Assembly (NCBI GenBank): GCA_021604665.1
Contig: BQJK01000001.1
Coordinates: 744,001 to 808,000 of the forward strand
DNA from: Rhodomicrobium sp.
Lineage (GTDB): Bacteria > Pseudomonadota > Alphaproteobacteria > Rhizobiales > HXMU1428-3
Direction: 5' to 3'
DNA: 64,000 nt
Made by a program: the position numbers and the translations under genes. Under the pieces are notes generated by a model, which saw only the letters and a list, made by a program, of their open reading frames with translations, was not told the DNA's origin and ran no database searches. Shown here one piece after another: positions 54,068 to 55,858 of this stretch. Positions within the stretch are counted from its first letter, which is position 1. Each line of letters opens with the position of its first letter.

Positions 54068-54202
54068 CAGAGGGACGCTAAAGGCAATTTACATAACCAG
54101 CAACCCTAATGTAAGAAGCCTCGCCGGGCCCATGAAGTGAGACATGTGAATGAGAAAAACACATAGCAGGCCACAAAATCAAACAACAAAACAAACCATC
54201 AT

Positions 54203-55630
54203 TTAACGAGAGAGTTTGGACTTTGGTAAGCCTAACGTCTCCACCCCCTTCGGCAACGGCCCATTGAGCGAATATTTCGGCACACCACCTCCGGTCGCTG
54301 CACAATGGATAAGGCCCCTTTGATACGCAACTGCGACTTCACTAGAAGGCAGTAACAAACCTTGGCCGCCATTCCTATTCACGAAGTCTTTTACTTTGGT
54401 ATGCGCCCTTACCTTCAGCCCTTTTAAATCAGCCCCTCTTGTAATTCTCTTAGTGCAATAAAAGACGAACGGTACACAGCCTCTACAGGAGGGTAATTCT
54501 GAGCGAACAGCGCCCATTTTGAAGATACCTAATCGCTGGTAGATTGCATCAAGATATTCAAGATGTGCCGCCACAGAAACACCCCCAGCTTTTGGAGGCT
54601 CAGGCCGAATAGGTTTGGCGGGTTTTAGCGCCGCAACTTTGCGCAAATTCAATTGGCGTATCTTTAGCTTGGCCACTGCCCGGTGCGCCCCTGAGGGAAA
54701 CTCCTTAAGGTAAAATTCAAAGTCAGATATTTTATTAGACTGTGAAATTGTCTTCCAAAGCACTACCGCAGCTGAGGGAGATTGACCAACCGGCTTTTGT
54801 TTAATAGCAGCAACCTGTTTTTGAGGCTTTTTTGTGGGAGACGCAGCCCCGGGAATAAAAAAATAATCCCCCCTCACCTGGTCATAAAAGGCCGGGAATT
54901 GTTGATGTCTGTCAGCGGTGGTAAGTGCCAGAGATTCAACCTCCACCTGCAAGCGTTTGGCCATTTTCACATGCGATAGACCCGGCGTTTTCAAAAGAGG
55001 CAACAACTTTCGTGTGAAAACAGAATTAGGGTCGGCATCATCATCGCTTAACCGGTCTAGCGCCTCTTCCCCAATGCCAGCAGAATAAATCACAAAGGTA
55101 TTTCGCGGCGGGCTTTTCCGTTGCCCAAGACCAACAGAGCGACCAACAGACCTCGTCCCCGTCTTAGGAAACGGATTATTCCGGCACGCATCAATTATCA
55201 AGATACTAACCCGTGCGCCCTTCTCTCGTAGAATATCGAGAATTTCATCTTCTGAAAAACTGTCCTTCAGAACAAAGCGCTGCTGCCCAGGTTTAATTTT
55301 AGGGATATCAACCGGCAAAAGAAAATTCTGCCCCTTGAAGGAAATGCCATGTCCGGCATAATAAAACACCACCTCACCCCCGGCTGAGATGCGCCCGCTA
55401 AGCTCAGTCAATTGCCGCGCCATGCTTTGCCTGTTGAGATTCTCACTCGCCAAAACATCAAAGCCAATATCTCGCAGCACAAGCGCCACAGCCCGCGCAT
55501 CATTCACAGCTTTTTGCAGAGGGGAGACATTCACATAGCTATCATTGCCAATAACCAGCGCCACCCGCTTAGCCGAGACAGGCAGCGGCAGTAAAATAAG
55601 AGATAGTAAGAGAAGCGACAAAACTCTCAT
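54203..55630 (-). CDS. Caspase-like (peptidase C14) exported protein with a C-terminal TRAP DctP-like segment
   Basis: A 475-residue protein read from the ATG at 55630, which has a GGGAGG site (frame open to 55687). A signal peptide (LSLLLLSLILLPLPVSA) is followed by a caspase-like domain opening 'KRVALVIGNDSYVNVSPLQKAVNDARAVALVL', with the catalytic His94 in YYAGHG and Cys149 in IDACRNNP. A helical module follows ('VLWKTISQSNKISDFEFYLKEFPSGAH'), common in alphaproteobacterial caspase-like proteins. After a Lys/Pro-rich linker, the last ~115 residues resemble part of a TRAP-transporter solute-binding protein ('DLKGLKVRAHTKVKDFV', 'SSEVAVAYQRGLIHCAATG'). Only about a third of a DctP is present. 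The protein is probably periplasmic; substrate and role are unknown. It separates tilS from cpoB. Confidence 0.8.
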   Translation of the reverse strand: MRVLSLLLLSLILLPLPVSAKRVALVIGNDSYVNVSPLQKAVNDARAVALVLRDIGFDVLASENLNRQSMARQLTELSGRISAGGEVVFYYAGHGISFKGQNFLLPVDIPKIKPGQQRFVLKDSFSEDEILDILREKGARVSILIIDACRNNPFPKTGTRSVGRSVGLGQRKSPPRNTFVIYSAGIGEEALDRLSDDDADPNSVFTRKLLPLLKTPGLSHVKMAKRLQVEVESLALTTADRHQQFPAFYDQVRGDYFFIPGAASPTKKPQKQVAAIKQKPVGQSPSAAVVLWKTISQSNKISDFEFYLKEFPSGAHRAVAKLKIRQLNLRKVAALKPAKPIRPEPPKAGGVSVAAHLEYLDAIYQRLGIFKMGAVRSELPSCRGCVPFVFYCTKRITRGADLKGLKVRAHTKVKDFVNRNGGQGLLLPSSEVAVAYQRGLIHCAATGGGVPKYSLNGPLPKGVETLGLPKSKLSR

Positions 55631-55858
55631 CCAGAACCTCCCAAGCAATGGCCAAAACAGAACGCAACGGCAGAGATAACAGACCAACTAAAATTGGCGG
55701 ATTACATCAATATTTAGGAATAAAGTTAGCAGCCCCCGCAATAAAAAGATAGCGAGCCCATATTAAAGATAATTAATGGAGGTGATAAATAGGGGGACAC
55801 AAAAACCCTGAGAGCTGTAGAGAAGCAATGAAGCCCAGCCGAAAGAGGGGCAGCAGCA

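Follow-up and report, generated by a model that had tools for sequence, protein, structure and literature searches.

A caspase-like protease of Rhodomicrobium sp. with a C-terminal module descended from one lobe of DctP-type TRAP solute-binding proteins

Within the 64,000-nucleotide stretch of DNA analysed here (the window), a reading frame on the minus strand runs from an ATG at 55630 to a stop at 54203 and encodes a protein of 475 residues. Its neighbours are cpoB and tilS, and no DctQ or DctM transporter genes are adjacent. The first-pass annotation had described a signal peptide, a caspase-like domain with intact catalytic His and Cys residues, a helical repeat and, at the C-terminus, a fragment of about 115 residues from a DctP-type TRAP solute-binding protein (SBP). 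The first three descriptions hold (Table 1): a signal peptide can be recognized by eye, the caspase domain scored 103.4 bits in a Pfam scan (cut-off 21.4) with the dyad of His94 and Cys149 intact, and the helical repeat is present and common to other caspases of the genus, being shared with paralogues of the FGE and YARHG types. The protein probably leaves the cytoplasm for the periplasm.

Table 1. Layout of the gene and its product; positions are those of the window
Feature	Positions	Strand	Basis
Whole gene: caspase-like protease, probably exported, with half-DctP C-terminal module, 475 aa	54203..55630	-	
Predicted signal peptide, residues 1-20 (MRVLSLLLLSLILLPLPVSA, followed by KR)	55571..55630	-	by eye from sequence
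Peptidase_C14 caspase domain, residues 21-252	54875..55570	-	Pfam PF00656, E 1.9e-29
Catalytic His94	55349..55351	-	YYAGHG
Catalytic Cys149	55184..55186	-	IDACRN
Lys/Pro-rich, fast-evolving linker, residues 263-353, including helical repeat DFEFYLKEFPSG	54572..54844	-	
Half-DctP module, residues 354-447, homologue of domain II of DctP-type TRAP SBPs	54290..54571	-	
CxxC, Cys382/Cys385, module-specific, without counterpart in donor SBPs	54476..54487	-	invariant in six modules
Cys392, half of a cysteine pair derived from the donor SBP subfamily	54455..54457	-	
Cys443, partner of Cys392 (predicted disulfide)	54302..54304	-	
Arg408, equivalent of SiaP carboxylate-binding Arg147	54407..54409	-	alignment; PMC4646407
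Conserved C-terminal tail, residues 448-475, without counterpart in SBPs or stand-alone modules	54206..54289	-	

The descent of the C-terminal segment required more sensitive comparison, since neither the window protein nor its three fused relatives reached the curated PF03480 (DctP) cut-off in the Pfam scan. Used as a single query against 385 genomes of the class, the last 125 residues matched complete proteins of about 350 residues at E values down to 1.2e-9; the one such match scanned against Pfam is a DctP protein (PF03480, E 1.8e-22). Annotated plasmid matches of the segment were mostly named ‘TRAP transporter substrate-binding protein’, and the plasmid search returned only partial SBP-like matches, none covering 80% of the module and none for the tail. 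Profile–profile alignment with hhalign of five modules against 24 SBPs gave a probability of 99.2% (E 2.4e-19, 88 columns), while 50 column-shuffled controls reached at most 0.7% and a reversed control 0.4%; none of 200 shuffled single sequences produced a match. The aligned portion is domain II, spanning approximately residue 88 to the 180s of mature SiaP; the similarity stops near residue 448, the final ~26 residues having no SBP counterpart. We conclude that ~94 C-terminal residues derive from domain II of DctP-type TRAP SBPs. The earlier assignment is thus upheld for these residues and for its estimate that about one-third of a DctP-type protein is present, but not for the last ~26.

Structure prediction gave models of low confidence. 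With few relatives available, AlphaFold gave a pLDDT of 51.0 for the full protein and 49.4 for the module; the order of strands and helices in these models is compatible with a DctP lobe, and a fold search with the low-confidence model gave no significant match. The window protein shares with DctP-type SBPs, specifically with the subfamily carrying an FC...DC cysteine pair, the domain II homology, the paired cysteines and an equivalent of Arg147. It differs from them in carrying an extra CxxC, in being fused to a protease, in the lack of adjoining transporter genes and in having neither domain I nor the hinge helix, so that the two-lobe architecture with its hinge is not present. The second lobe of an SBP is required for normal ligand clamping.

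The fusion is conserved within the genus. Three other genomes encode a caspase bearing the same C-terminal region (41–44% identical); by contig, two of them correspond to the metagenome-assembled genomes titled Methyloligella sp. DHS20C07 and Hyphomicrobiales bacterium OFTM213. A further such genome, OFTM323, has a fragment of the fusion at the end of a contig. The window protein and the three congener fusions are about 45% identical over nearly their full length, with 55% identity in the caspase domain and 35% in the module. Among congeners the module shows a dN/dS of 0.08–0.10 and is under purifying selection. The linker is only 18–23% identical to its congener counterparts, compared with 55% in the caspase domain, and has a dN/dS of 0.24–0.34; the linkers also differ in kind, the window protein having the DFEFYL helical repeat of the FGE/YARHG type and the congeners a coiled-coil-like stretch.

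Two further modules stand alone, in proteins from two other Hyphomicrobiales families, the order being named here after the titles of the congener genomes. One (L087) consists of a signal peptide, a Pro-rich linker and the module; in the other (L086) the module follows a zinc ribbon and an apparent transmembrane helix. A profile of four sequences that excluded both (A1) matched them at E 4e-11 (L087) and 2e-13 (L086); against Pfam DctP, L087 scored 17.4 bits (E 0.0029), below the curated cut-off of 23.4. Both have the same boundaries and the same four cysteines as the fusion module but lack the protease and the conserved tail, carrying instead the zinc ribbon and helix or the Pro-rich linker. 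Searches with one genome per species, sampled at the order level and above (397 genomes of the order, 385 of the class and 299 of the phylum), revealed no modules beyond those of the genus and these two, and no relative was found on viral contigs. Phage matches had E values of 0.7 or worse, including one to an internal stretch of the portal protein of Rhizobium phage 16-3, and were treated as chance. Upstream of the L087 gene and divergent from it lies a gene for a protein of >1500 residues with an apparent signal peptide (L191, genome G021), a possible functional neighbour.

These data bear on the alternative, raised in the first-pass annotation, that the segment is a recombination scar. On that view, an arbitrary stretch of a TRAP SBP was joined by accident and is drifting. 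Such an origin would fit the presence of just one-third of a DctP fold and the state of the tilS–cpoB site, which holds no caspase gene in any of the six congeners from which tilS was recovered. It is contradicted by the conservation among congeners at low dN/dS (about 0.10), by the invariant cysteines, and by independent stand-alone copies, secreted or tethered, with identical boundaries. We consider a scar highly improbable. Neither of the outcomes that the first-pass annotation had named as refuting its reading was observed; the cysteine pattern, the conserved tail and the exchange of modules among caspase paralogues, described below, are additions to that annotation. Because relatives keep the lobe under selection, together with its extra cysteines and a conserved tail, the module looks like a working part for sensing or targeting. 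The window's own genome encodes one complete DctP protein, so the module was not broken off from an extensive TRAP repertoire there.

The six modules analysed (window, three congener fusions, L086 and L087) share the pattern CxxCVP...C...C. The CxxC formed by Cys382 and Cys385 is a feature of the module alone, which the aligned SBPs lack. At the SBP positions corresponding to Cys392 and Cys443, both residues are Cys in 63 of 69 DctP proteins, neither is in six, and one alone never occurs; the 69 proteins are related and do not represent a set of independent events. The pair is inherited from the donor SBPs, and its co-occurrence there suggests a Cys392–Cys443 disulfide.

In the DctP family, Arg147 of SiaP binds the ligand carboxylate (PMC4646407), and one SiaP crystal structure shows acetate bound to the domain II residues R127, R147 and N189 (PMC11550005). 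Binding of a small acid by a single lobe is therefore conceivable. Arg408 of the window protein aligns on Arg147, and the equivalent is present in both stand-alone modules; in the alignment of the three congeners it is shifted by two residues. SiaP R127 is not conserved, aligning to Phe in the window protein.

The tail is an element separate from the half-DctP module. Residues 448–473 form the most conserved segment of the whole protein (65–73% identical to the congeners), with a dN/dS of 0.05–0.13 that likewise indicates purifying selection. Within the genus the tail was found in the fusions only, with none like it detected on the other caspase paralogues. Its conservation, compared with 35% identity for the module, and its restriction to caspase fusions would suit a module that has passed beyond ligand binding and become a structural or protein–protein docking domain, with the tail rather than the old ligand site as its working surface. 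Also in keeping with such a change are the absence of the second lobe and the insecure placing of the Arg147 equivalent in three of the four fusions, whereas the presence of this arginine in the window protein and both stand-alone modules speaks against it. We regard docking as possible, though rather doubtful. A second proposal is autoinhibition by tail or module, with the basic tail (GLPKSKL) blocking the active site of the caspase and being displaced on a signal. Orthocaspases, the prokaryotic caspase homologues, cut after basic residues (PMC6426788), and the lysine-bearing tail is the best-conserved segment; but the proposal lacks structural support, the stand-alone modules have no tail, and nothing similar was found on the other caspase paralogues. 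We judge it distinctly unlikely.

A short frame in genome G001, between tilS and a YkuD gene (L181), reads LPKYSLNNPL and matches the window tail at 18 of 20 bases. It may be a remnant of the tail or of the same gene, but the match is statistically too weak to rely on: two of 500 shuffles scored higher.

By their caspase domains, the fusions do not form one clade. In a tree of caspase domains, the window protein grouped with L002, a caspase of the genus ending in YARHG, and with L145, which has another C-terminus, and the three congener fusions formed a separate branch; constraining the four fusions to one clade cost 46 log-likelihood units and was rejected (p-AU 0.00012). The modules on caspase paralogues of the genus are FGE-sulfatase, Sel1 with PG_binding, and YARHG. 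Given the rejection of one fusion clade, C-terminal modules (half-DctP, YARHG, FGE-sulfatase and Sel1) appear to have been swapped on a conserved caspase core. The half-DctP module arrived either in two separate gains or in a common ancestor, with later replacement in sister lines; both histories require C-terminal exchange. In two congener caspases (L172 in G002, L173 in G004) the recovered sequence stops close behind the core, which is preceded by a longer N-terminal stretch.

The congener fusions lie at another locus, beside a gene for a DUF2793 protein (L146, 3516–5765; L080, 4757–6778). In L146, lon- and clpX-like genes lie on the other side of the fusion. The tilS–cpoB interval (54068–55858 in the window; L157–L162 in congeners) is itself a variable spot, with the caspase gene in the window, a YkuD L,D-transpeptidase gene in G001, an ORF of 217 residues in G004 and no gene in G002, G003, G006 and G007.

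The overall plan has precedents. Like orthocaspases and bacterial metacaspases (Peptidase_C14, PF00656), the window protein has a p20-type caspase domain with a His–Cys dyad. For this group, export signals at the N-terminus and a variety of C-terminal modules, FGE-sulfatase and Sel1 among them, have been described (PMC3501461), and the window protein likewise combines an export signal, as predicted, with a C-terminal module. It differs from the surveyed proteins in ending with a one-lobe derivative of DctP that has a tail of its own; neither ‘solute’ nor ‘DctP’ occurs in the text of that survey, and a search of the literature on caspases fused to solute-binding domains found nothing relevant. 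Another parallel is A5ECX2, a secreted caspase from Bradyrhizobium with YARHG (PMC3355149), which has a signal peptide, a caspase domain and an extracellular C-terminal module. L002 follows the same plan and is 62% identical to the window protein over residues 19–333. Where the window protein has half-DctP, A5ECX2 and L002 both have YARHG (E 9.7e-11 in L002).

The explanation that we favour, and hold to be somewhat probable, is that the gene encodes an exported caspase-like protease with a single-lobe, DctP-derived recognition module that aims or gates the protease in the periplasm. The module from domain II would form a compact C-terminal unit, probably stabilized by disulfides, on a caspase core that in this genus is combined with several C-terminal modules. 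The half-DctP module and the tail would most likely serve as the recognition part, and may bind either a partner in the envelope or a ligand with a carboxylate group; through the flexible linker, the protease could then be positioned, or substrate access to it controlled. Against recognition stand the missing second lobe and hinge, the survival of an equivalent for only one (Arg147) of the two anion-binding arginines of SiaP, the two-residue shift of that arginine in congeners, and a genomic setting beside cpoB and tilS rather than transporter genes. We think it unlikely that the lone lobe is a mobile, disulfide-locked periplasmic sensor that in this genus switches the caspase when an organic acid is present, possibly through pairing of modules that rebuilds a closed site.

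Little is known of the signals by which caspase-like proteases of bacteria are controlled. The window protein adds a defined, conserved C-terminal module to this question, and suggests that alphaproteobacterial caspases consist of a constant protease core and interchangeable envelope modules. It also brings to light a small domain with four cysteines, corresponding to half of a TRAP binding protein, which Pfam does not recognize and which is free-standing in other bacteria. Separately, another DctP fusion occurs in the same genus: a frame of 674 residues (L040, G007:C43) in which a DctP domain (E 4.2e-17) is joined to an alpha/beta hydrolase of the DUF900 type.
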